NCBI GenBank assembly: GCA_015654675.1
Contig: JAATGM010000010.1
Span: forward strand, 62,001 to 126,000
DNA: 64,000 bases
From: Planctomycetota bacterium
Lineage (GTDB): Bacteria; Planctomycetota; Phycisphaerae; UBA1845; UTPLA1
Direction of reading: 5' to 3'
Both the position numbers and the translations under genes were made by a program. Below are positions 1 to 48,152 of this stretch, piece after piece (the stretch's first letter is position 1; each line of letters starts with the position of its first letter). Below the pieces are notes generated by a model. The model had not been told where the DNA came from and searched no databases. It saw only the letters and a program-made list of their open reading frames with translations.

Positions 1-1436
1 TTCGCCAGGCACCAGCGCAACAGCGTTTCCACCCCGTCGCTATTGGTCTGAATGAGGTTGCGATATCCCCGCGCCTCGGCCCCCAGCCACTGAAATTGGG
101 GGGCAAACAGCTGATCCGGGTACAACTGGAAGTCGGGGTAGGCCTTCTTGGTTTGCACTCCCAGCCAGCCCAACGGCAGGAAAATGGCGACTAGCGCAAC
201 CACGCCCCGCCGCACCGCATTCCTACCTCCAAGCCGCCGACTCGCCCCCACCGCAAACGCCGCCGTCAAAAGCATCAACAGGGGGTAAACCCCCATGAGG
301 TAAAAAGTCTGCCGCAAGGGCAGTAGACACAGCGCCCCCACCCATGCCACCACCGTCAGCGTGGGCAGCCGCCAGCGCGGATCGTTCCGGGCCTTCGCCA
401 GCCCGGTGACCAGCCCGGCCACCGAAAGAACCCCGACCGGAATCGTCGCCTTGAATAAGACGATGCCCGAATACAGCCGCAGATGATCCAGCGCCATCGC
501 CAAGGGCGGCTTGTGGTCCCAGCGGGCCGCCCTGCCCGCCAACCCGCGCAGAATCGCCGGCTGCGTCAGGTGCTCGGGCATGGCCGCACCCCACACCAGA
601 CCGGCCAGGATCACGACCCCCGTAAACGCCCGGGCCCGGCTCAATCCTTCGATCCGATCGGCGCACGCGGCGACCAGCGTCGCCGCCAGCATCACGCACA
701 CCGCCCCCCACACCCACACCGCCCACTCCGGCTTGATTTCAATTCCAATCAGGGCGATCGCCAATCCGATCGCCGAGACAACGAGCACGCCCCAAAGTCG
801 CCGGCTTCGCTCCGGCCGCATTTCAAGAATAGATGGCGTCGCTGCAAGGCAAATCCCGAATACCGGAACCAAAGCCAGCGCGTACGCCTTCGCCCCAAAC
901 GCCGCCCCGAGCATCACACCCGCGACGATCCAACGCGCCGTCGAACGCTTCGCCAGGAAGGCCGCAAACGACCAGCACGCCAGCGCCACCGTTGCCGCGA
1001 GAAAGATGTCCCCTTCAGTCATCGCGATCCGGCCAAACGCCAGGTAGTAGGGCGAAAGCGCCAGCAGCGCCGCAGTCAACGCCGCCGTCGCTCGACCAAA
1101 GAGCGTCCACGCCAGACCGGTCGCTGCCAGAATTCCGACCACGCCGACGAAAACACTGACGCGCCGTGCCGCCGCCAGTGTGGACTCGCCGGTCAACCTC
1201 GAGGCCAGCGCTGTGACATACATGGGTAGCCGAAACTGAGACGGGTCAATCGCACGCGCCTCGCCGACAATCGGATGCTCCGCCAGCGCCGCCGCGATCT
1301 GGAGATCGACCGCCTCGTCCCAAAGAATGTCCAGGTTACGCGCGGAAGAACCTGCGACAGCCGCGAAAACGGCTGCTGAAATGAAAATGGCGGCAAGGGC
1401 TAGCACCCCGCCGCCATAACCGCGATGGTCGGCCAT
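1..1436 (-). CDS. GT-C membrane glycosyltransferase (GT39/ArnT-like), partial at the window edge
   Basis: The frame stays open from an ATG at 1436 to the left edge, giving at least 478 residues without a stop. The start reads MADHRGYGGGVLALAA and is followed by a first transmembrane helix. Next comes WDEAVD in the first extracytoplasmic loop, the place of the catalytic acidic pair in dolichyl-phosphate-mannose-type transferases. Many hydrophobic helices follow. Near the left edge LGAEARGYRNLIQTNSDG resembles the YLxDSNxDWGQ-type C-terminal motif of this family. By family it would move a sugar from a polyprenyl-phosphate donor on the outer face of the inner membrane; donor and acceptor are unknown. 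The upstream gene stops one base before this start (TAAGATG), so the two are probably co-translated. The C-terminus lies outside the window. Confidence 0.75.
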   Translation of the reverse strand, partial: MADHRGYGGGVLALAAIFISAAVFAAVAGSSARNLDILWDEAVDLQIAAALAEHPIVGEARAIDPSQFRLPMYVTALASRLTGESTLAAARRVSVFVGVVGILAATGLAWTLFGRATAALTAALLALSPYYLAFGRIAMTEGDIFLAATVALACWSFAAFLAKRSTARWIVAGVMLGAAFGAKAYALALVPVFGICLAATPSILEMRPERSRRLWGVLVVSAIGLAIALIGIEIKPEWAVWVWGAVCVMLAATLVAACADRIEGLSRARAFTGVVILAGLVWGAAMPEHLTQPAILRGLAGRAARWDHKPPLAMALDHLRLYSGIVLFKATIPVGVLSVAGLVTGLAKARNDPRWRLPTLTVVAWVGALCLLPLRQTFYLMGVYPLLMLLTAAFAVGASRRLGGRNAVRRGVVALVAIFLPLGWLGVQTKKAYPDFQLYPDQLFAPQFQWLGAEARGYRNLIQTNSDGVETLLRWCLA

Positions 1437-1437
1437 C

Positions 1438-2193
1438 TTATCGTTGCGACGCGATTGCTTGTGCGAGCGGACTCACGATCATGGGCACAACCTTTTCGGT
1501 CGCCATTTCCTCGGCCCGCTCCAGCAACTCCGCCTGCGATTTCGCAAGCGAAACTGCGTCATTAAATCCCCAATACTTGCGAAGCGTCAGATAGACGCTC
1601 AACGATTGCGACTCGAACTGCCCGGTCCGAACCTCGTACGTCGTCGTGCGACTCTTGATGTCCACGTACGCCTGCAAATCGCACTCGTCCGTCAGCGCCA
1701 CACCCACAAACGGCTGGCAATCGATCACTGGCCGCGTCCGATCGTCACTCAGTATGCTGATCAGCGGATGGTCCGCCAGCAACGTGTCGGCCACGAGCTG
1801 GTCGTGATTTCCGCGATACTCCAGGTCAAACCCGAAGACCGTCTCAAGATGGTCGTAGTCCAGATCGCCCAGCGTCAGGTGCGCCGGCGCCATCTCGAGC
1901 ACCACCTCCCCGAATCGGCGGACATCCTCCAGCGATCGCGGATTGCTCAAGCCGAAGCGCAATGCCCCCGCCTCCAACCGCAACCACCGCCTCTCGCCTT
2001 CATCGCTGTAGTCTTCTTCGAGGATCAGCGCGTCGTCATCTCGCCGGCGGAGCTTCCGCATTTGCGGGAATTCCCGCTTCACGCTGTCGAAAAAATGCAA
2101 AACCGTCTCGCGCTGCAGGGTCAGGTCGAGTTTGAGAAACAGGCGCGTCGAGATCTGAAATTCATCGCAAACACCGCCGAACGGAAAACTCAT
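1438..2193 (-). CDS. conserved hypothetical cytoplasmic protein, 251 aa
   Basis: I do not recognise the family. The protein is acidic and soluble, with no signal peptide or membrane helix. It starts with MSFPFGGVCDEFQIST, has a basic patch (MRKLRRRDDD near residue 45), then alternating strand and helix segments with several Asp/Glu-rich turns (LGDLDYDHLETVF), and a helical C-terminal quarter. The general look (short N-terminal domain, repeated aromatic strands, about 250 residues) loosely recalls TIGR04255-type proteins, but I cannot support that. The start is well supported by a GAGGAGG Shine-Dalgarno eight bases upstream of the ATG at 2193. It overlaps nothing and its stop is separated by one base from the glycosyltransferase start, so the pair forms an operon. 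Confidence 0.7.
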   Translation of the reverse strand: MSFPFGGVCDEFQISTRLFLKLDLTLQRETVLHFFDSVKREFPQMRKLRRRDDDALILEEDYSDEGERRWLRLEAGALRFGLSNPRSLEDVRRFGEVVLEMAPAHLTLGDLDYDHLETVFGFDLEYRGNHDQLVADTLLADHPLISILSDDRTRPVIDCQPFVGVALTDECDLQAYVDIKSRTTTYEVRTGQFESQSLSVYLTLRKYWGFNDAVSLAKSQAELLERAEEMATEKVVPMIVSPLAQAIASQR

Positions 2194-2785
2194 GAAGCAT
2201 GCCTCCTCGAGGGGGCAAACGCGAAAATCGTCGAATTAAGACATTATTGCCGACCGGGTCAGTCGAAGCAACCACCGCCAACGGTCGGTCCGCGTCTGGA
2301 CCGGAAAAATGTCCATCTGCGCTTCATAAAACGCCAATTGCGCCGAATCGTCGCCGGCGCTCCCCTTTCATAGCGACGTACGCTGTCCAATTCCCGGCTT
2401 GCCGCAACGGAACTCAACGAACCGCGCGAGCGAAAAATGCGAGCAGATCCCGCTACGACATCGCAGTGCATTCATCACATTCTCAAATGCGAATCATGCG
2501 AGCGGCACTCGCCAGAAACGTGATGTGACCCATCAGCTTCTCAAATCAAACAAGCGGGGCTCGCATTCAAAAAACCACCGCCGGCAACATCCGAGAACCA
2601 GAACCGAACTGAACTCGGACCCCAAATTCGTCCAAATCGTGCACATTTCACCGACCTGTGAATTTGCCATAGAACGTCCCCATTACGCAGTCCAACCGAT
2701 AACCAATTGAATCAAAACCCTTTAGGACATTTCGACGCGCGCATACTCCACGTCTAATTGGTCAACTCTGCTTATAATTGGTCGC
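2194..2785. other. 592-bp intergenic region with divergent promoters, no gene seen
   Basis: This gap separates the leftward unknown gene (start 2193) from the rightward MerR-type regulator (start 2786). It is noticeably richer in A+T than its flanks. Open frames here have no ribosome-binding sites and unnatural composition. Its right end carries three AATTGGT half-sites and a perfect TATAAT, described separately. I see no tRNA or riboswitch fold. Confidence 0.6.
2755..2783 (+). promoter_or_regulatory. promoter with direct-repeat operator for the MerR/B12-type regulator
   Basis: TAATTGGTC occurs twice as a direct repeat (2755-2763 and 2775-2783, 20 bp apart, about two helical turns). An inverted half-site ACCAATT lies at 2702-2708. 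The second repeat overlaps a perfect TATAAT at 2773-2778, which ends seven bases before the ATG at 2786. No convincing -35 is visible. MerR-type CarA/CarH regulators are known to bind repeated sites over promoters, so autorepression is a reasonable inference. The spacing also implies a leaderless transcript. Confidence 0.5.
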
Positions 2786-3706
2786 ATGGCCGACGAACAT
2801 CAGCCGCAGGCCGTTAGAGAACTGCTCACCCCCAAGCAGGTCGCCCGCGCCATCGGCGTCAGCAGCGCCTCGCTCAAACGCTGGTGCGACAAGGGCATCA
2901 TCGCTTCCGTTCGCACCGCCGGCGGCCACCGCCGACTTCCGATGAACGGCGTCATCTCGTTCATCCGTCAAACAGGTCACGCCCTCGTGCGTCCTGAAGC
3001 GCTCGGCCTGCCCGCCACCATCGGACTCGGCAATACCGTTCAAAGTTATTCGCTCGCGCAATTCCGTTCAGCCCTCGAAATCGGCGACGAAGATCAGGCC
3101 CGCGGCGTGCTCTTCAATCTCTATCTCGCCGGCCACACGCTCTGCGATATCGCCGACAAAATCATCGCCGCGACATTCCACGCCATCGGCGAGGGGTGGG
3201 CGCAGGGCCATACCGAGATCTACCAGGAGCGCCGCGCGATCGAAATCGCGATCCGTTGCATCTTCGAACTCCGCCAGGTCCTTCCCCCGCCCGCACCTTC
3301 AGCCCCGCACGCCATCGGCGCGACCACCGAAGGCGATCCCTACACGCTGCCGACAACGCTGATCGAACTCGTCCTTCGCGAAGCCGGCTGGCGCGCCGAC
3401 TCCTACGGACCCAATCATCCGTTCGAAACGCTCGCCCGCGCGATCCAACAAAGCAAACCGCGCCTCCTCTGGCTCAGCGTTTCGACCATTCCGTCAGTCG
3501 ACGATTTCCTGACTCGCTACGCCACTCTTTACGAAACAGCAACCGCGGCCGGCGTCGCCATCGTCGTCGGCGGCCGCGCGCTCACGACCGAAATCCGCTC
3601 GCAGATGACCTACGCCGCCTATTGCGACAAGTTTCGCCATCTCGTTTCCTACGCCGCCTCGCTCACGCAGGCGCACGCCGACGGCCAGGCCCAGGCCGAC
3701 GAATGA
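2786..3706 (+). CDS. MerR-family regulator with CarH/LitR-like, degenerate cobalamin-binding domains
   Basis: Residues 14-60 form a MerR-type winged helix-turn-helix (LTPKQVARAIGVSSASLKRW, then GGHRRL). Residues 85-165 resemble the helical B12-binding-2 cap, and residues 180-290 a Rossmann-like B12-binding domain. CarH photoreceptors use a Wx9EH motif in the cap and DxHxxG in the Rossmann domain. Here W138 and E148 are kept, but the following residue is R149. The lower-ligand motif reads D184-P-Y-T-L-P189, so the axial His is Tyr. The residue after W138 is Ala, where CarH has the His that binds cobalt after light. It may therefore not bind adenosylcobalamin in the usual way. The convergent photolyase three bases downstream fits the classic LitR/CarH-photolyase neighbourhood. 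Promoter details are given at 2755-2783. Confidence 0.8.
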   Translation: MADEHQPQAVRELLTPKQVARAIGVSSASLKRWCDKGIIASVRTAGGHRRLPMNGVISFIRQTGHALVRPEALGLPATIGLGNTVQSYSLAQFRSALEIGDEDQARGVLFNLYLAGHTLCDIADKIIAATFHAIGEGWAQGHTEIYQERRAIEIAIRCIFELRQVLPPPAPSAPHAIGATTEGDPYTLPTTLIELVLREAGWRADSYGPNHPFETLARAIQQSKPRLLWLSVSTIPSVDDFLTRYATLYETATAAGVAIVVGGRALTTEIRSQMTYAAYCDKFRHLVSYAASLTQAHADGQAQADE

Positions 3707-3709
3707 ACA

Positions 3710-5215
3710 TCACCCCGAATAGCGCGCGATATAATTCTTCACCGTGAACTTCCGGGCCGTGTTCTCCGAGCTCATATAGCGAATATTTCCAAAGATCGGG
3801 CGCTCCGGAAACCACGGCCGGTCGTAACGCCCAAGACACCAGAAGATGCCGCTGTACGAATTCGGATCGCGCCCATCCAGCGCATACTTGTTGTTCAATT
3901 CAATCAGAATCTCTAACGCGTCCCGCGGGCCATCCGACCACTCCAACACCTTCTTGCCCCACAACATCCGCAGATAATTATGGATCCGCCCTTCGCGCAC
4001 CAGTTGCGCCTGGGCCGCATTCCAAAGCGGATCATGCGTCTCCCCCTGCTCAAACTGCCGCAATGAATACCTTTTCGGCCGCCGATCCTTCGCGTGCTTC
4101 TCCAGCGTCGCCCGCGCCCACGCCGGCAGCGACTCATACTGGTCGTAGTCCTCGCGCTGCCAGCACATGTTGAACCCCAGCTCACGCCACGTCACCAGCT
4201 CATCCAGAAACGACTCAATCGCTGGCGGCAGACGCCACCACCCCTCCTTCTTCCCATTCGCCCGCTCGGCCACGTCGCCCGCGCTCCAGTCCGTCCGTCG
4301 CGAAATCTCATGCAGCACCTGATGCGCCGAAATGTGTCCAAAATGCAGATACGGCGACAGCCCGCTCGTCACCTCCTCCTCCGGCTGATTCCGCGCCACC
4401 CCATAACGCGCCAGCTTGCGCTCGAAAAACGCCTTCATCGCCGCAACCGCCGCCCGCGATCCGCCCGCCGTCTTCGTCGCGCCCACCCGATGATCGATCG
4501 GCAGCTCACCGACATCGACCTTGCCGCGCACCCTCGGCCATCTCCGCGTCAGCCCGTCCGGCAATCGCCGCAGCGCCGGCAACTTCACCCCTGCGAGCGG
4601 CTTCGCCTTCGGCCCCGCCTGCAAATGCTGCGTCAGCGTCTTCTGCAGAAATCGCCGAAACGCATAAGCCGTCGGATAGACCACGCTGGTCGCCCGCAGC
4701 GGCAGCAGCCCGTTCGAATCAACCGCCTCCATCAACACCGGAGTCTGCCGCGCCCCCGCCGCCAACATCCGCGGCAGCATGAACGCCGGAAAATCGTCCG
4801 TCACCACCACACACGCTTGCCGCCCCAGCACCGCCAGCATCCCCTTCCCCGCGCCGGCCTCTGGCTCTACGTACGGGTAATACGTCACCGGCGCATTCGC
4901 GAAGCCGGCCTCATTGTCCACCATTCCGTCCAGAATGAATTGATGCAATCGATCGCTCGCCCACCGATATCCGCACCGCAGTCCTTCAACAATCAGCAGC
5001 GGCTTCTTCATCCGCAACGCCCATTCCACCGCGCGCTGCAGACTGAAGTTCCACGTCGTCCGCCGAAATGCAATCATCCAGTACAAAACGAACGCCCCAC
5101 CCGCGTTCGGCGAACCCGCATTCACAGCCCTGACCCGAATTTCCGGCGTCGTAACCATCATCAGACTCGCGACTGCGCCGCCCGGCCGCCCCCGCCGCGC
5201 CTTGCCCGGCGACAC
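3710..5215 (-). CDS. phr: class II CPD photolyase
   Basis: Deoxyribodipyrimidine photolyase, which splits UV-induced cyclobutane pyrimidine dimers with light energy using FADH-. An N-terminal alpha/beta antenna-binding domain (VLYWMIAFRRTTWN) is followed by the helical FAD domain. Class II hallmarks are clear: TSGLSPYLHFGHIS, FLDELVTWRELGFNMC, THDPLWNAAQ, IHNYLRMLWGKKVLEWS and YALDGRDPNSYSGIFW near the C-terminus. Length is normal for the class. The first possible start is GTG 5215, ten bases after a TACTAT -10-like box (5226-5231). ATGs at 5161 and 5158 (MMVTTPEIRVRAVN) are also plausible and align better with class II N-termini. It is convergent with the CarH-like regulator, with three bases between stops. 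Confidence 0.93.
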   Translation of the reverse strand: MSPGKARRGRPGGAVASLMMVTTPEIRVRAVNAGSPNAGGAFVLYWMIAFRRTTWNFSLQRAVEWALRMKKPLLIVEGLRCGYRWASDRLHQFILDGMVDNEAGFANAPVTYYPYVEPEAGAGKGMLAVLGRQACVVVTDDFPAFMLPRMLAAGARQTPVLMEAVDSNGLLPLRATSVVYPTAYAFRRFLQKTLTQHLQAGPKAKPLAGVKLPALRRLPDGLTRRWPRVRGKVDVGELPIDHRVGATKTAGGSRAAVAAMKAFFERKLARYGVARNQPEEEVTSGLSPYLHFGHISAHQVLHEISRRTDWSAGDVAERANGKKEGWWRLPPAIESFLDELVTWRELGFNMCWQREDYDQYESLPAWARATLEKHAKDRRPKRYSLRQFEQGETHDPLWNAAQAQLVREGRIHNYLRMLWGKKVLEWSDGPRDALEILIELNNKYALDGRDPNSYSGIFWCLGRYDRPWFPERPIFGNIRYMSSENTARKFTVKNYIARYSG

Positions 5216-5322
5216 CCCGCATCATAGTATTTCCCACGCGCTGCGGATGGCCCGCGGCGCGAAGCCGGAAACGTCAATCCATCATGCTTCCCACCACGAG
5301 CAGTTCTAGCAGGAGTCGATCC

Positions 5323-6114
5323 ATGTCAGTCGGTCGTTTGTCGAGAGTCGTCGGCCTCACGCTCGTTGCAGCTATGCTCACTGCCGGATGCCAGAACGAT
5401 GCCAAGTCCCGCAAGAAGCCCGGCTCGGCCAAGGGCTTCGTCACCAAGACCGATCTCGCCAACAACAAAGTCTCCATGAAGGTCAAGAAAGAGCGCGACG
5501 GCAGCGAAATCGAAATCACCGGCTCGCTGACGCCCGAAACAGAAGTCTTCATCAACGGCCTGAAGCGCACCGCCGCCGACGTCGAGATCAATGACGAGAT
5601 CCGTGTCGAATACGACCGCGCCGGTGACGGCGTCGAAATGCAGTTCACCGTCCTCCGCGTTGACGTCAGCCGCCCCGAGGGCTGGAAGTCCACCAAGGCC
5701 GCCACCGGCGAGCCCCCCCTCAAGATACTCCCGCCCCAACCCGAAGGACCGACCAAAGCCGATCGAACCTTCATCGCACCGCCCGAGCAGCCCAAGCTTC
5801 CGCCCCCCGGACCCGCCGCTCAGCCGCCGGCCGCAAACCAGGGCGCCAAAGCCGAAGACATGACCAACCAGATCTACGCGGAAATCCGCCGCCGCCTCGA
5901 TGAATCCGTGACAAAGCGCGCCGACCTGCTCAAGCAGGGCAAGCCCGTAAATGACCCCGCAGTTCAGAAAGAAGAAGGCATCATTCGAAAGGCACGCTCC
6001 CTCCTCATGGAGCGCGGCGAAAATGTCGAGCCAATCGTTCCTCCGCTCGCCGAAGATGCAGCCACCCCCGCCGGAGCTGCCCCCACGACCCAGCCCGCCG
6101 CCGCTGGCAGCTAA
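5323..6114 (+). CDS. lipoprotein with proline-rich linker, unknown function
   Basis: The start at 5323 is chosen over an upstream in-frame ATG at 5284 because AGGAG sits seven bases before it and a clean lipoprotein signal begins there: SVGRLSRVVGLTLVAAML then the lipobox LTAGC. After the acylated Cys comes a small beta-rich domain (residues about 35-115; GFVTKTDLANNKVSMKVK) that looks like an OB- or SH3-like fold. A Pro/Ala-rich linker follows, then a helical segment (QIYAEIRRRLDESVTKRADLL) and a low-complexity tail with TTQPAAAGS. I recognise no named family. It probably sits in the outer or inner membrane facing the periplasm. It is divergent from the photolyase and convergent with the gmhB fusion. 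Confidence 0.75.
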   Translation: MSVGRLSRVVGLTLVAAMLTAGCQNDAKSRKKPGSAKGFVTKTDLANNKVSMKVKKERDGSEIEITGSLTPETEVFINGLKRTAADVEINDEIRVEYDRAGDGVEMQFTVLRVDVSRPEGWKSTKAATGEPPLKILPPQPEGPTKADRTFIAPPEQPKLPPPGPAAQPPAANQGAKAEDMTNQIYAEIRRRLDESVTKRADLLKQGKPVNDPAVQKEEGIIRKARSLLMERGENVEPIVPPLAEDAATPAGAAPTTQPAAAGS

Positions 6115-6127
6115 CGCCGCGCCGTCG

Positions 6128-7003
6128 TCAGCGCCGGCTCGCCATAAAGGCCGTCAGCGCCATCAACTGAAACACGATCGCCGTCAGCAGGCGGATCACC
6201 GCGTCATTCACCGCGCCCGGATTCTTCTCGCTGATTTCCATTGTCGCATACAACCCCCACCCCAGCGCGCAAACCGCGAACGCCTGCGCCACGGCCCCGA
6301 TTAGCCGCGCCATCGAAAAGTCCAGCCGCCGCGCCTCCTGACGCGTCGTCCGAAGCTCATCGACTATCTGCCCCAGCAGCGCATCGCTCGACGGCCCCGA
6401 GGCCGCTCGCGGGTCAGGTGCGTTCATCGCGGTCTCCTTCGCTGGAGGTGTGCTCATCTTCGGTTCCGAGGTTATTAACTTCGCGGCTGCGCTCAGATCA
6501 CTGGCCGTGCGGTCCGCCGCCGAAATCTCCCCGGTCGGCAAATGCACCCGAATCGTCCGGCAACCGGCCGCACGCCCCGCCGAAATGTCGCGCTCCGCGT
6601 CGCCCACCATCCAGCACGACAATAAATCCAGGTTCAGCTCGCGCGCCGCGAGTTGCAGCATGCCCGGCCGCGGCTTCCGCAGCTCGCTGTCCTTCTTGTA
6701 CGCCGCGACAACCGCCTCGTCGGTCTCCAGAAACGGGCAGTAATAGACAGCATCCACCCCCGTCCCCTTTGCCAGCAGCAACTCCTGCATCCGCTGATGC
6801 ACCGCCGCCAACTGCTCTTCGGTAAACAACCCGCGCGCCACCCCCGATTGATTTGTTACAACCACCACGTGGTACCCATGACTGCGCAGCGCCGCGACCG
6901 CATCCGCCGCCCCGGGAAGCAGCCGTACGCCATTCGGATCGGATAGATACCCCGAGTTGTCAATCAGCGTGTTGTCGCGATCCAGGAAGACAGCCCGTTT
7001 CAT
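6128..7003 (-). CDS. gmhB: GmhB-like heptose-bisphosphate phosphatase fused to a C-terminal membrane domain
   Basis: Residues 1-175 are a HAD phosphatase of the histidinol-phosphatase/GmhB type: FLDRDNTLI (nucleophile D8, acid D10), VVTNQSG, ELRKPRPGM and VGDAERDI. GmhB removes the 7-phosphate of D-glycero-manno-heptose 1,7-bisphosphate on the way to ADP-heptose for lipopolysaccharide core. The usual zinc site (Cys-Pro-His ... Cys-x-Cys before RKPKPGM) is missing: only the CPF cysteine remains. Residues about 180-291 add a low-complexity linker, an amphipathic helix (ELRTTRQEARRLD) and two hydrophobic helices, ending with FMASRR. This tail would tether the enzyme to the inner membrane. It is the last gene of the lpxK operon, 17 bases after the previous stop. 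Confidence 0.8.
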   Translation of the reverse strand: MKRAVFLDRDNTLIDNSGYLSDPNGVRLLPGAADAVAALRSHGYHVVVVTNQSGVARGLFTEEQLAAVHQRMQELLLAKGTGVDAVYYCPFLETDEAVVAAYKKDSELRKPRPGMLQLAARELNLDLLSCWMVGDAERDISAGRAAGCRTIRVHLPTGEISAADRTASDLSAAAKLITSEPKMSTPPAKETAMNAPDPRAASGPSSDALLGQIVDELRTTRQEARRLDFSMARLIGAVAQAFAVCALGWGLYATMEISEKNPGAVNDAVIRLLTAIVFQLMALTAFMASRR

Positions 7004-7020
7004 CCAGGGTTCCCTGTTCG

Positions 7021-7983
7021 CTACAGGCCTTCGATCAGCGCCTGCCGCAGCAACGGCAGCGTCAGCTCATGATGGCCGACCACCTCAATGCCCATCCCCT
7101 TGCCCACCGGCCGTGTCAAAACATTCTGGTGCGGTCGATAGTGTCGCAGCATGTCGAGATTGACCGTCCGCATCGCGTCGAGATTGTGGCCGAGATTCCG
7201 CGCCACCGCGACCGCCTTCAAGAACACTTCCGGCAGGATGACCGACGACCCGACATTCACCCACACGCCCCCCGGCCCGTTACGCCGCGAAGCGCCCAGC
7301 TCGCTGACCACCGCGCATGCTATCCGAAAGTCGATCCCGCTCGCCCGGCCCAGCGCTGCCATATCGAGCTGCGGATGCATGTGAATTGTGTCCGTCCCGA
7401 TCGCCACGTGCACCGTCGCCGCAATCCCCGCCCGATCCGCCGCAACCAGGATGCTGTGTTTCCCATAAGGCGGCCGCAGTTCGCGGAGTGTCGCGCCGAT
7501 CGCGCTTCCCAGCCCCACGCCCGCCGCCCCGCGCTTCGCCGCCGCCGCAAAAAAATCAGGCGTCTCGCGCACCATCCCGAATCGCCCGTCGCGAATCGTG
7601 TCCGCGACCTCTTCGCTCGTCTCGCCGAAGATCGCCAGTTCGGCGTCGTGGATCGCCGTCGCGCCGTTCATGGCGATGGCATCAATGAATCCGCGTTCGA
7701 TCAGATCAACAATGATCGGCGAGCAGCCAACTTTGACGACATGCGCCCCCATGGCGAACACGATTGGCCGGCCGCCCCGCCGCGCCGCGCCGATCGCCTC
7801 CACCGCCCGCCGCAGATTCGTCGCCCCCAGATAGTCCGGCAGCGCCTTCCACCACGCCTTGAAACTCGCCCCGCGCTTCGGAAGCCGCGCCAATCCCGCA
7901 GTCTCCACCTTATGCCCGCGCGCCGCGACGGAAAACGTCTTCAACCGCGAAAGGTCAACCGGCTTGATGCTTCGACGTTTCAT
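7021..7983 (-). CDS. conserved protein, tentatively deoxyhypusine-synthase-like
   Basis: A 320-residue soluble alpha/beta protein. The core GRPIVFAMGAHVVKVG, PIIVDLIERGFIDAIAMNG, ATAIHDAELAIFGET and GVGLGSAIG recalls the Rossmann-like NAD-binding fold of deoxyhypusine synthase. Bacterial relatives of that fold are often labelled deoxyhypusine synthase family although bacteria lack eIF5A. I could not find the active-site lysine neighbourhood expected of the true enzyme. The histidine-rich stretch IGTDTIHMHPQLD may be part of a ligand or metal site. It starts four bases after the lpxK stop and ends 17 bases before gmhB, so a role in lipid A/core sugar supply or envelope polyamines is an inference from context. 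The function is unknown. Confidence 0.5.
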   Translation of the reverse strand: MKRRSIKPVDLSRLKTFSVAARGHKVETAGLARLPKRGASFKAWWKALPDYLGATNLRRAVEAIGAARRGGRPIVFAMGAHVVKVGCSPIIVDLIERGFIDAIAMNGATAIHDAELAIFGETSEEVADTIRDGRFGMVRETPDFFAAAAKRGAAGVGLGSAIGATLRELRPPYGKHSILVAADRAGIAATVHVAIGTDTIHMHPQLDMAALGRASGIDFRIACAVVSELGASRRNGPGGVWVNVGSSVILPEVFLKAVAVARNLGHNLDAMRTVNLDMLRHYRPHQNVLTRPVGKGMGIEVVGHHELTLPLLRQALIEGL

Positions 7984-7987
7984 GCGC

Positions 7988-9103
7988 TCACGCTCGCTTC
8001 ACTGCCATCGCATCGTCCAACGCGCGACCCAGCACGTCCGCGTCGCTCGCGTCGAACTCGATCGCCAACTGTGCCGTCAGCAGGGGCACCGGTCCTTCCG
8101 GCCAGCGTCCCACGAGCTTCACCGCGTCCTTCTCCGTCGTGATCAATGCGTTTGCGTCCAATTGCGCGCACACGTCGGTCAACTGCGAAATCTCTTCATC
8201 GCTGTAGTCATGGTGGTCAGGATACTGATACGCCGCCACCACCGTCGCGCCGAGCCGCTCAATCGATTCCCGAAACGGTTCGAAGTGGCCCAGGCCGGCG
8301 AATAGTACGGCTTGCATCGCCCGCGCGTCGACCTCGCCCACCGGACGACCCTTCACATCCGCGAACCCCGGAATCCGGTGCCGAGCCGCGATCACCGGTC
8401 GACCGCCCGACATCCTCTGAATCGCCTCGACCAGCCGCCGTCGTTTCTCGTCCGAAACCAGGTCGCTTCGCGTCAGGATAATTAGTCCAGCTCGACGCAA
8501 GCTCCGCAGCGGCTCGCGCAACAATCCGCGCGGTAGCGCGTAGCCGAATCCAAACGCCGCCGTCGCATCTATCAACACAAGGTCCAGGTCGCGCGCCAGC
8601 CGCCGATGCTGAAATCCGTCATCCAGTACCAGCACATCCGCCCCGCGCGACGCCGCCCGCTCGGCGCCCGCCACGCGATCCGGTTCGATGATCACGATCG
8701 CTTTCGGACACAGACGCGTGAGCAGCGCCGCCTCGTCGCTCTCGATCCGCCACTGGCTGGCCGCATCTTCGCGCGATTCATCCGAGAACCGCACCGGCCG
8801 CCCCCGATACCCCCGCGTCAGAATTCCCACGACGCGATCGCTGGCTGCCAGCCGCTGCGCGATCCACGCCGTCATCGGCGTCTTCCCCGTGCCCCCGGTC
8901 GTGATATTCCCGACCGAGATCACCGGGCGGCTCGCCCGCCGCGCCGCGCCGCGAAACAACCGAAATCGCGCGTTTCTGATTGCAATGCACGCCAGATACC
9001 CCAGCGACAACACCCACAACACCGCGCGTAGGACATCCGCAAAGACGCCCCGCGCCTTCCCGGAAATCAAATCAAAATAGTACGACCGGCCTCCGGATGT
9101 CAT
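7988..9103 (-). CDS. lpxK: tetraacyldisaccharide 4'-kinase LpxK
   Basis: Membrane-associated kinase that phosphorylates the 4' position of the lipid A disaccharide using ATP, the sixth step of the Raetz pathway. A hydrophobic N-terminal segment (VLRAVLWVLSLGYLACIAI) anchors it to the inner membrane. The P-loop reads VGNITTGGTGKTP, followed by the family motif LVLDDGFQHRRLARDLDLVLID, then LPRGLLREPLRSL and a C-terminal LITTEKDAVKL. The length (371 residues) is normal. It is the first gene of a compact three-gene leftward operon with the deoxyhypusine-synthase-like gene and the gmhB fusion. Its presence shows that the organism makes lipid A. Confidence 0.95.
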   Translation of the reverse strand: MTSGGRSYYFDLISGKARGVFADVLRAVLWVLSLGYLACIAIRNARFRLFRGAARRASRPVISVGNITTGGTGKTPMTAWIAQRLAASDRVVGILTRGYRGRPVRFSDESREDAASQWRIESDEAALLTRLCPKAIVIIEPDRVAGAERAASRGADVLVLDDGFQHRRLARDLDLVLIDATAAFGFGYALPRGLLREPLRSLRRAGLIILTRSDLVSDEKRRRLVEAIQRMSGGRPVIAARHRIPGFADVKGRPVGEVDARAMQAVLFAGLGHFEPFRESIERLGATVVAAYQYPDHHDYSDEEISQLTDVCAQLDANALITTEKDAVKLVGRWPEGPVPLLTAQLAIEFDASDADVLGRALDDAMAVKRA

Positions 9104-46514: not shown

Positions 46515-48152
46515 ATGGTCATTGACGCTTCTCCGCGCACCCGGCGCAAGATTCGATTCATCAACCCCAACTCGGCACTCACCACGCTCACCATGCCGGA
46601 GCTCATCCAGAAGATGACTTTCTCGCGTAAAGCCATCTTCGCCCCCTCCGGACTCATGGTCTGTGCGCAGGTCATGCCCAAGGAATGGGAAGTCGAAATT
46701 GTCGACGAATCGGTGTTGGACGCCCCGCACGCGCCCAAAGCCGATGTGGACATCGTCGGCATCACGGCGATGACGACCCAGGCAAACCGCGCATACCAGA
46801 TCGCCGCCGGATATCGCAAGCTCGGCGTCACCGTCATCATGGGTGGCATCCACCCCAGCGCCGTTCCCGAAGACGCCCTGCGTCACTGCGACGCCGTTTG
46901 CATCGGCGACGGCGAAACTACGTTGCCGCACCTGATCGCCGACTGGGAGGCCGACCACGACCTCTCCCGCTCCAACGGAAATGGCAACGGAAACGGCGGA
47001 GCGCGCCACCTCCAACGCATCTACGACTGGACCAAGTTCGAAACCGCTCCCATCGGCACCCCACGCAAAGACCTGCTCAATCCCAAGGACTACCTGATCT
47101 ACAACCCCATCCAGACCACGCGCGGCTGCCCGCACGCCTGTACCTTCTGCACGACCCCGGGCGTCTTCGGACGCAAGTTCCGCCTGCGAGACGTGAAGGA
47201 CATCGTCGAGGAGATGAAGGAAGCCAAGGAGCGCTTCGGTACCTGGTGCTTCATCTTTGCCGACGACGACTTCGCCGGTAACCACAAGTGGGCGTTGGAA
47301 CTCTGTGCCGCCATGGAGCCGCTCAAGATCAGTTGGGCCAGCCAGTGTGATATCCTCATCTCTCGCAACGACAAACTCCTCGAAGCCATGCGCCGCTCGG
47401 GCTGCCAGGGTCTCATTCTCGGGCTCGAATCGCGCAAGCAGGACACCTTGTCCGAAGCCGGCAAGCGCTTCGTCAAGGCCGACAGTTACGAGTGGCGCAT
47501 CCGCAAGATTCAGTCCAACGGCATCAGCTTGTGGGGCGCGTTCATCTTCGGTTTCGACCACGACAAATGGCAGGACCTCATGTTCACCTGCCGTTTCGCC
47601 CAGCGCATGAATCTCGCCATGAGCTGTTACCCCATCCTGACGCCCTACCCCGGAACCGGCGTCTGGCACGAATACGTTCGCCAGGGTCGCATCACCGATA
47701 ACAACTGGGACCGATACAACGGCGCCAGCATCGTCTTCGATCCGAAGAATCTATCTCCCCTCCAGCTTCGTCACGCACAGATGTGCGCGTTCGCTGAGTT
47801 CTACTCACCACGCAGCATCCTCCGCCGACTCAAAGTGATGCCGCTTAAGAAGCGCGCATGGATTGCCAACATGGCAATCTGGCGTGGTGTGCGCTGGTAC
47901 TATGGCAAGAAGGGTCGCCTCGTCCCCCGTTTCAGCGACTTCCTCGACAGTAAGAGCCGTGCCTGGGACTATAAGGAATCTTCACCCCTCTCTGCCGATG
48001 GGCCGTGCTGCACTTCAACACCCAACCTCGCCGAACTCACCGTGCCCTTCGCCGAGCCCTACCAACAGGCCGCCGACTACATGCAATCACTGCAACGCAG
48101 TCACTCACGTCGGAAGTCCGACTCCGGCGTAACCTATGTCCGGGCGAATTGA
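46515..48152 (+). CDS. B12-binding radical SAM protein
   Basis: ATG 46515 with GGAGG six bases upstream. The N-terminal domain (residues about 10-150) is Rossmann-like: KIRFINPNSALTTLTMPELI, DVDIVGITAMTTQANRAYQ, VTVIMGGIHPSAVPEDAL, CDAVCIGDGETTLPHLIADW. The lower-ligand DxHxxG motif is not obvious. A Gly/Asn linker (NGNGNGNGG) joins the radical SAM domain, whose cluster motif CPHACTFC follows IQTTRGC, with later TWCFIFADDDFAGN and FIFGFDHDKWQ. Family members methylate or rearrange unactivated carbons (hopanoid, antibiotic or lipid substrates). The C-terminal half is basic and helical. The substrate is unknown, and it stands alone facing a lipoprotein gene. Confidence 0.85.
   Translation: MVIDASPRTRRKIRFINPNSALTTLTMPELIQKMTFSRKAIFAPSGLMVCAQVMPKEWEVEIVDESVLDAPHAPKADVDIVGITAMTTQANRAYQIAAGYRKLGVTVIMGGIHPSAVPEDALRHCDAVCIGDGETTLPHLIADWEADHDLSRSNGNGNGNGGARHLQRIYDWTKFETAPIGTPRKDLLNPKDYLIYNPIQTTRGCPHACTFCTTPGVFGRKFRLRDVKDIVEEMKEAKERFGTWCFIFADDDFAGNHKWALELCAAMEPLKISWASQCDILISRNDKLLEAMRRSGCQGLILGLESRKQDTLSEAGKRFVKADSYEWRIRKIQSNGISLWGAFIFGFDHDKWQDLMFTCRFAQRMNLAMSCYPILTPYPGTGVWHEYVRQGRITDNNWDRYNGASIVFDPKNLSPLQLRHAQMCAFAEFYSPRSILRRLKVMPLKKRAWIANMAIWRGVRWYYGKKGRLVPRFSDFLDSKSRAWDYKESSPLSADGPCCTSTPNLAELTVPFAEPYQQAADYMQSLQRSHSRRKSDSGVTYVRAN

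Follow-up and report, generated by a model that had tools for sequence, protein, structure and literature searches.

Several described proteins can be set beside the regulator reported here. In CarH of T. thermophilus, H177 is reported as the lower ligand of the cobalt and H132 as its upper ligand after light (PMC10442372), and H142 is described as part of the Wx9EH cap motif, which touches the adenosyl group (PMC9304148). A signature of four elements (GxxW, EH, GxxH and GxxxP) has been put forward for cobalamin photoreceptors, in which the residue after the cap Trp is given as Arg, Gln or Tyr (PMC11796333). B12-independent relatives of CarH, namely class II LitR and CarA, and a B12-type fold that holds haem, the SCHIC domain of AppA, are already known. 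Class II LitR of Pseudomonas (PplR/PmlR) is related to CarH and regarded as B12-independent, and its regulon includes photolyase, FolE and CryB (PMC9758184), but it keeps only the four-helix domain, whereas our regulator has a conserved Rossmann domain. CarA of Myxococcus xanthus, a CarH paralogue acting without B12, is the reverse of our case, being described as keeping the B12-binding motif and EH and as being without the Trp (PMC9304148). The AppA SCHIC domain is reported to carry haem, another tetrapyrrole, after changes in its pocket; it is not a MerR protein, however, and its His is shifted by two positions (PMC9144470).

The locus described here lies in a stretch of 64,000 nucleotides from a Planctomycetota bacterium, which we call the window. 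The regulator and its two neighbours are:

2786..3706, + strand: regulator with MerR domain and B12-type fold, 306 aa (P0001), assigned by Pfam domains and by its sequence and fold match to 8jbs
2825..2935, + strand: winged helix-turn-helix of the regulator, residues 14-50, found by Pfam MerR/HTH_17; the BldC-type HTH model gives 42.9 bits, below its cut-off of 77
3710..5215, - strand: class II photolyase, convergent neighbour, identified by TIGR00591 and matches to 8oet/2xry, with no operator at its promoter
1438..2193, - strand: divergent neighbour of 251 aa with no Pfam or NCBIfam match at E <= 1

The regulator is laid out as a MerR-type winged helix, a four-helix cap and a B12-type Rossmann domain. 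With a MerR helix-turn-helix, a B12-type C-terminal domain and homology to CarH it belongs to the LitR/CarH superfamily. In the Pfam search the MerR/HTH_17 domain was found and the B12-binding domain PF02310 scored 37 bits, above its cut-off, with PF02607 falling under its own; the NCBIfam CarH equivalog NF052513 gave 41.3 bits and the curated cut-off of 400 was not reached. Class II LitR is defined by an absent Rossmann domain, whereas here PF02310 exceeds its cut-off and Rossmann strands are present in the structure model. This model was built from two sequences and has a mean pLDDT of 66.9, with a poor helix-turn-helix region and pLDDT < 50 at residues 34-55 and 57-88. Its best fold match is 8jbs (TM 0.82 by target, rmsd about 2); behind it come further corrinoid proteins, namely MttC, photocobilins and methionine synthase, as well as CarH. 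The same entry is the top solved structure by sequence (E 5.6e-30), and its protein is named CtMerR in the paper that gives the photoreceptor signature (PMC11796333). CtMerR of Chloracidobacterium thermophilum (8jbs/8jbt) shares the MerR helix-turn-helix, four-helix cap and Rossmann domain with our regulator, but it carries E-H and GDLH and is reported to bind AdoCbl (PMC11796333), whereas our regulator carries E-R and GDPY. Two further genes of the window may be mentioned. Another B12-binding domain (PF02310, 58.9 bits) lies at 46623-46934 on the + strand within an open frame of 705 residues, and a HAD-type phosphatase (Pfam) lies at 6128-7003 on the - strand, its C-terminal part by eye resembling an added membrane segment.

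Compared with CarH, the pocket of the regulator reads as follows:

3197..3202, + strand: W138-A139, cap Trp retained and Ala at the position of CarH H132 (alignment with T. thermophilus CarH)
3227..3232, + strand: E148-R149, the E-H motif of CarH turned into E-R (alignment; Arg in 50 of the 51 E-R-type rows, window included)
3335..3352, + strand: D184-P-Y186-T-L-P189, Tyr at the lower-ligand His (alignment; Tyr in 49 of 51 rows)
3569..3574, + strand: G262-G263 of the B12 motif (present in 51 of 51 rows)

For this comparison W131, H132, E141, H142 and H177 were located in CarH of T. thermophilus HB27 (L169), and A139, R149 and Y186 of the regulator align with H132, H142 and H177. The regulator thus shares domain order, W, E and GG with CarH, whereas all three histidines are replaced. 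A preliminary description of this locus had read the retained W138 and E148, the Arg at the motif His, DPYTLP at the lower-ligand motif and the Ala after W138 from the sequence, and the alignment with characterised CarH bears out each of them, with no His at any of the three positions. Its wording, that all three cobalamin histidines had been lost, is right in its term for the histidines but wants two qualifications: all three are replaced, but only H177 and H132 bind cobalt, H142 being part of the cap motif, and the His residues are gone, but 'lost' understates the change, two of the positions being conserved as Arg and Tyr. In terms of motifs, the Wx9EH of the CarH cap has become Wx9ER (W138, E148, R149), the lower-ligand motif D/ExHx2G/P has become DPYTLP with Tyr in place of His, and the GG of the B12 motif is kept (G262, G263). 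GxxW (135-138) and GxxxP (208-212) of the photoreceptor signature are likewise kept, and the other two of its four elements are changed, ER replacing EH and GxxY replacing GxxH. A139 by itself tells little, since the residue after the Trp varies in B12 photoreceptors and in the E-R branch, where ten different residues were found across the 51 rows and His in one. At residue 140 (W138 + 2) His or Cys occurs in 39 of 51 E-R rows and Gln in the window; this could be a shifted metal ligand.

These replacements are not peculiar to one genome. At E <= 1e-20, 36 of 101 near genomes contain a homologue of the regulator, as do 67 of 294 genomes taken from the phylum at E <= 1e-10 (window's genome counted in both), one homologue (L031) coming from a Pirellula MAG. 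Our alignment of 109 rows comprises 106 of 108 fetched homologues, the short L025 and L163 being left out, together with the window, T. thermophilus CarH and CtMerR, and splits into 51 E-R rows (one of them E-A; window included), 53 E-H rows and 5 others. Among the E-R rows E148 is conserved in 51, R149 in 50, Y186 in 49 and W138 in 48, and W229, G208, P212, G262 and G263 are invariant; positions 149 and 186 are both among the 35 of 295 columns that are at least 95% conserved. The E-H set, canonical proteins included, has Tyr at the lower position in 36 of 53 rows and His in 12. In a tree of 104 rows, calculated with the columns of residues 148, 149 and 186 removed and L155 and L165-L168 left out, a 52-row E-R-type group is sister to a 45-row E-H group (SH-aLRT 90 for each group, 98 for the two combined). 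On this tree the R state has a single origin, the upper position changing twice in all (the other change gives the Ala seen in L087), and five changes are needed at the lower His/Tyr position. On alignment and tree, Tyr-for-His is the more widespread change and Arg-for-His marks the window's branch. The order in which the two arose can be read only loosely and is suggestive at best, because the outgroup branches are long: TtCarH, CtMerR, L164 and others stand on long branches, and 44 of the 101 forks are open.

Decay of the histidine motif is rejected as an explanation by the conservation of R149 (50/51) and Y186 (49/51), and chance substitution can be excluded because two of the replacements are shared across the whole branch. 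Nor does the pocket appear to have changed for want of B12, since the cell has B12 enzymes with intact motifs: the window's genome encodes MetH (TIGR02082, slightly below its cut-off, the frame being partial) as well as the C-terminal domain of an acyl-CoA mutase (TIGR00640, above its cut-off), both with DxHxxG intact, so that B12 starvation of the host was rejected as the cause. From the replaced residues we infer that His-on binding of AdoCbl has been lost. It might be possible that cobalamin is nevertheless still bound, base-on or with Tyr186 as lower ligand, making the protein a B12 photoreceptor of altered chemistry. This would agree with the retention of GxxW and GxxxP of the published signature (PMC11796333) and of the S and GG of the B12 motif. 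It would also agree with the invariant cap E148, whose equivalent in CtMerR touches the adenosyl group, and with the use of AdoCbl- and MeCbl-type enzymes by the cell, but two of the four signature elements, E-H and GxxH, are gone. We know of no Tyr-ligated cobalamin protein, and regard this reading as unlikely.

A further feature common to the family lies in front of the gene. A repeated CGTTCA was first seen when the upstream regions were read side by side, and the motif is a direct repeat with a 9-bp period, AATCGTTCA-AATCGTTCA (CGTTCA-N3-CGTTCA), which we consider a candidate operator. In the window it is represented by:

2629..2643, + strand: operator-like box CGTCCA-AAT-CGTGCA, a direct repeat with a period of 9 bp that starts 157 bp ahead of the start codon and belongs to the family-wide motif

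The box is contained in the 592-bp intergenic region between the 251-aa gene and the regulator. Across 60 upstream regions of 430 bp (window included), pairs of CGNNCA were counted at spacers of 0-19, giving 54 at spacer 3 versus 0-7 at the others, whereas 119.6 kb of downstream control sequence showed no peak (19 at spacer 3, 5-41 elsewhere). Exact CGTTCA pairs numbered 18 at spacer 3 and 1 over all other spacers, with none at spacer 3 in the control. The box stands on the regulator strand in 36 of 60 regions and on the opposite strand in 1, compared with a mean of 0.8 and a maximum of 4 regions in 200 rounds of dinucleotide shuffling; the strict motif is absent from 24 of the 60. Under the strict pattern, two boxes spaced 57-58 bp from each other occur between -150 and -230 in at least six regions, and one box occurs between -17 and -48 of the aligned start in fourteen. 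A matrix was built from 53 such sites, the window's box among them, and the scores of those sites are consequently not independent. Of the 49 regulators that lack the E-H His, 31 have a matrix site of at least 20 bits, and of the 10 that possess it, 8 do. Across 38 flanks 6-15.5 kb long, every site of at least 22 bits starts at -260 to +30 of the regulator, the sole exception standing at -330 in L067, between regulator and FolE. The window's box, which is in the training set of the matrix, tops the 64 kb at 28.4 bits with the next site at 13.7; the plain pattern with up to 3 mismatches showed no excess there (3 sites vs 3.2 expected), and an Rfam search of positions 1-9000 gave no match. Closer to the gene, TAATTGGTC occurs twice at 2755-2783, the starts 20 bp apart and the second copy right before the start codon, and an inverted CCAATTG lies near this pair at 2703-2709; relatives' upstream regions contain no counterpart of the TAATTGGTC pair.

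The 9-bp period recalls BldC, whose MerR-like helix-turn-helix is reported to sit head to tail on direct repeats of 9 bp, AATTXXXX(C) (PMC5859096), and the strong boxes of the regulator family start with AATTCGTTC. BldC is without an effector domain, however, and our regulator stays below the cut-off of the NCBIfam BldC model (42.9 vs 77). The operator of CarH is described as a tandem direct repeat of 11 bp, nnnnTnnACAn (PMC9304148); the period found here, by counting CGNNCA pairs at spacers of 0-19, is 9 bp. Boxes upstream of the regulator's own gene would imply self-control, and those between a divergent folE and the regulator would imply control of the neighbour.

The photolyase gene had been taken in the preliminary description as the tail-to-tail partner of the regulator. 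As an arrangement this is correct, the two genes converging stop to stop with 3 bp between them (stop codon ends at 3706 and 3710), and the neighbour is a class II photolyase, TIGR00591 giving 372 bits (E 5e-111), though below the cut-off of 550. It matches 8oet and 2xry at E about 1e-73 to 1e-72, 2xry being the class II photolyase of Methanosarcina mazei. A photolyase gene is also the second neighbour of CarH on the HB27 plasmid of T. thermophilus. The functional pairing, on the other hand, is not supported: the best matrix site in the photolyase promoter region scores -3.9 bits versus 28.4 for the regulator's box, and with the window photolyase as query the flanks of 38 of the 39 other regulator places and L031 gave only partial matches (26-32% identity, 6 stretches). 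Direct control of the window photolyase was therefore set aside as unsupported, and we do not claim it because its promoter is without a box and 13 of 36 genomes lack the expected gene company.

That company was surveyed in 101 genomes of the same family and order, with 40 regulator places. The ORF caller put 34 of the 40 regulators in one family, which makes neighbourhood counts based on ORFs lower bounds; distances were taken from HMM places instead, covering all 60 PF03441 places and the 21 FolE places on regulator-bearing contigs. A PF03441 (class I-type) photolyase lies within 12 kb of 13 of the 40 regulator places, and FolE lies within 0.6 kb of 13, in 12 cases divergent across the upstream region. 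All 13 genomes with a regulator-adjacent FolE have at least two FolE matches; the extra FolE stands divergent beside the regulator across the box-bearing region, for example in L055, L057, L059, L060, L066 and L067. CryB-type genes (PF04244) are found 17 times in the 101 genomes, nine of them within 5 kb of a regulator. Taken by genome, a photolyase, a CryB-type photolyase or FolE is near the regulator in 23 of 36, with none of the three in 13. PF03441 is present in 33 of 36 genomes with the regulator versus 17 of 65 without (Fisher p 7e-11, relatedness ignored), a comparison in which 2 of the 50 positive genomes, the window's own included, were called below the model cut-off and in which 17/65 may be too low because PF03441 detects class II photolyases poorly, as with the window's own. 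Other genes recurrent near regulators, each family named by Pfam on one or two members, are fasciclin, lipocalin, SOUL haem-binding, DUF2867 reductase, DUF1731 epimerase, DCC1-like and sigma-70-like genes.

One could read the adjacency of regulator and photolyase in the window's genome as chance, with the regulator governing some function unrelated to light. The boxless photolyase promoter fits this, as do the want of a class II photolyase beside the other regulators searched, the divergent 251-aa neighbour without family match and the placement of the genome's one FolE on another contig. We consider it very unlikely all the same: homologues stand near photolyase, CryB and FolE genes far above chance for 12-kb stretches of 4-5 Mb genomes, and in four homologue loci the regulator is followed directly by the photolyase gene, in the same orientation.

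Further targets were sought with the motif itself. Allowing up to 2 mismatches, the window's genome has 38 sites, 35 of them inside called ORFs (28/30 in one set and 7/8 in the other), the regulator's own box being counted as such through a spurious 103-aa ORF; the reversed pattern gave 3 sites, a poor control because most motif sites lie in coding DNA, and we put forward no list of targets for this genome. An intergenic site scoring 24 bits (L218) is not followed by any clear gene. When a longer pattern was applied to ten other genomes, it matched 39 sites versus 3 for its reverse, 13 of them upstream of regulators in nine of the ten genomes (none in G002) and many others inside ORFs. A site in G164 (L202) was rejected as a target promoter, lying inside a gene and below 18 bits. 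In G002 and G013 (L192, L184) a box stands 142-164 bp upstream of a fasciclin gene, on the strand opposite to the gene and away from the regulator. This gene may be a target; because both genomes belong to a single genus, they count once.

Taken together, the regulator looks like a light or photodamage regulator of CarH descent with a re-tooled pocket. It probably controls light-damage repair genes without the B12 chemistry of CarH, since the CarH histidines are gone, relatives share two of the replacements and often adjoin light-damage repair genes. To this extent the earlier suggestion of a light module with a ligand other than cobalamin, or with no need of cobalamin, remains the best reading, with the His gone, two replacements fixed and light and photodamage genes in the neighbourhoods; a functional pairing with the window photolyase is unsupported. 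Our preferred reading, which we hold tentatively and which falls a little short of being probable, is that of a conserved CarH/LitR branch, probably of Planctomycetota, acting as a self-regulating switch for light and photodamage genes by means other than CarH chemistry. The repeat would be its operator. By analogy with BldC and CarH, the winged-helix domains would bind the 9-bp direct repeats head to tail, at one box or two lying far upstream, in the interval that separates the regulator from a divergent target such as folE if there is one, and in many cases at a further box close to the start of the regulator's own gene, and the bound regulator would repress. The B12-like cleft would be kept, with a fixed Tyr for the lower cobalt His, a fixed Arg for the His of the cap motif and the light-state upper His missing, and would most likely accommodate some other small molecule, or a tetrapyrrole bound in another manner; arrival of this ligand, or its alteration by light or oxidation, would then free the DNA. 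A narrower version, in which Y186 and R149 give a tyrosinate-ligated cobalamin or a haem/bilin site in a photoreceptor or redox-sensor branch with the 9-bp operator and a photorepair regulon, seems quite unlikely.

It might instead be possible that the B12-like domain is an empty scaffold and that DNA binding is switched by a partner docking on it, be this a LOV-type photoreceptor, an antirepressor or a sigma-factor pathway. This reading, doubtful in our view though a possibility to be reckoned with, has precedents in class II LitR of Pseudomonas (PMC9758184) and in CarA/CarS of Myxococcus (PMC9304148), and the class II LitR regulon reported for P. putida comprises PhrB, FolE and CryB (PMC9758184), families found here too. 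One sigma-70-like family lies within three genes of the regulator in 6 of 40 stretches, directly divergent in 5 (two of the six Pfam-checked). An empty scaffold would not obviously need the nearly invariant R149, Y186, W229, G208 and P212, however; even the commonest neighbour family covers only 9 of the 40 stretches, a lower bound from ORF calls, and the window yielded no partner in a search that did not extend to LOV domains. Folding alone could account for the retention of the GG and other cleft residues. With modest confidence we favour a different ligand in the old cleft over an empty scaffold, because both replacements are fixed and B12 is in use elsewhere in the genome.

A text search of the literature found no publication joining 'planctomycet' and 'CarH'; among the matches listed for 'planctomycet' and 'LitR' the titles concerned other matters ('litr' also matches 'litre'), and a wider search returned no description of such a regulator in the portions of the papers it covered. 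The finding bears on an open question of CarH/LitR biology, namely how regulators independent of B12 evolve from a B12 light sensor. It does so with a large family, probably of a phylum without a CarH-naming publication in our text search, whose upstream regions carry a clear repeat motif and whose gene neighbours lend themselves to straightforward tests of ligand and light.
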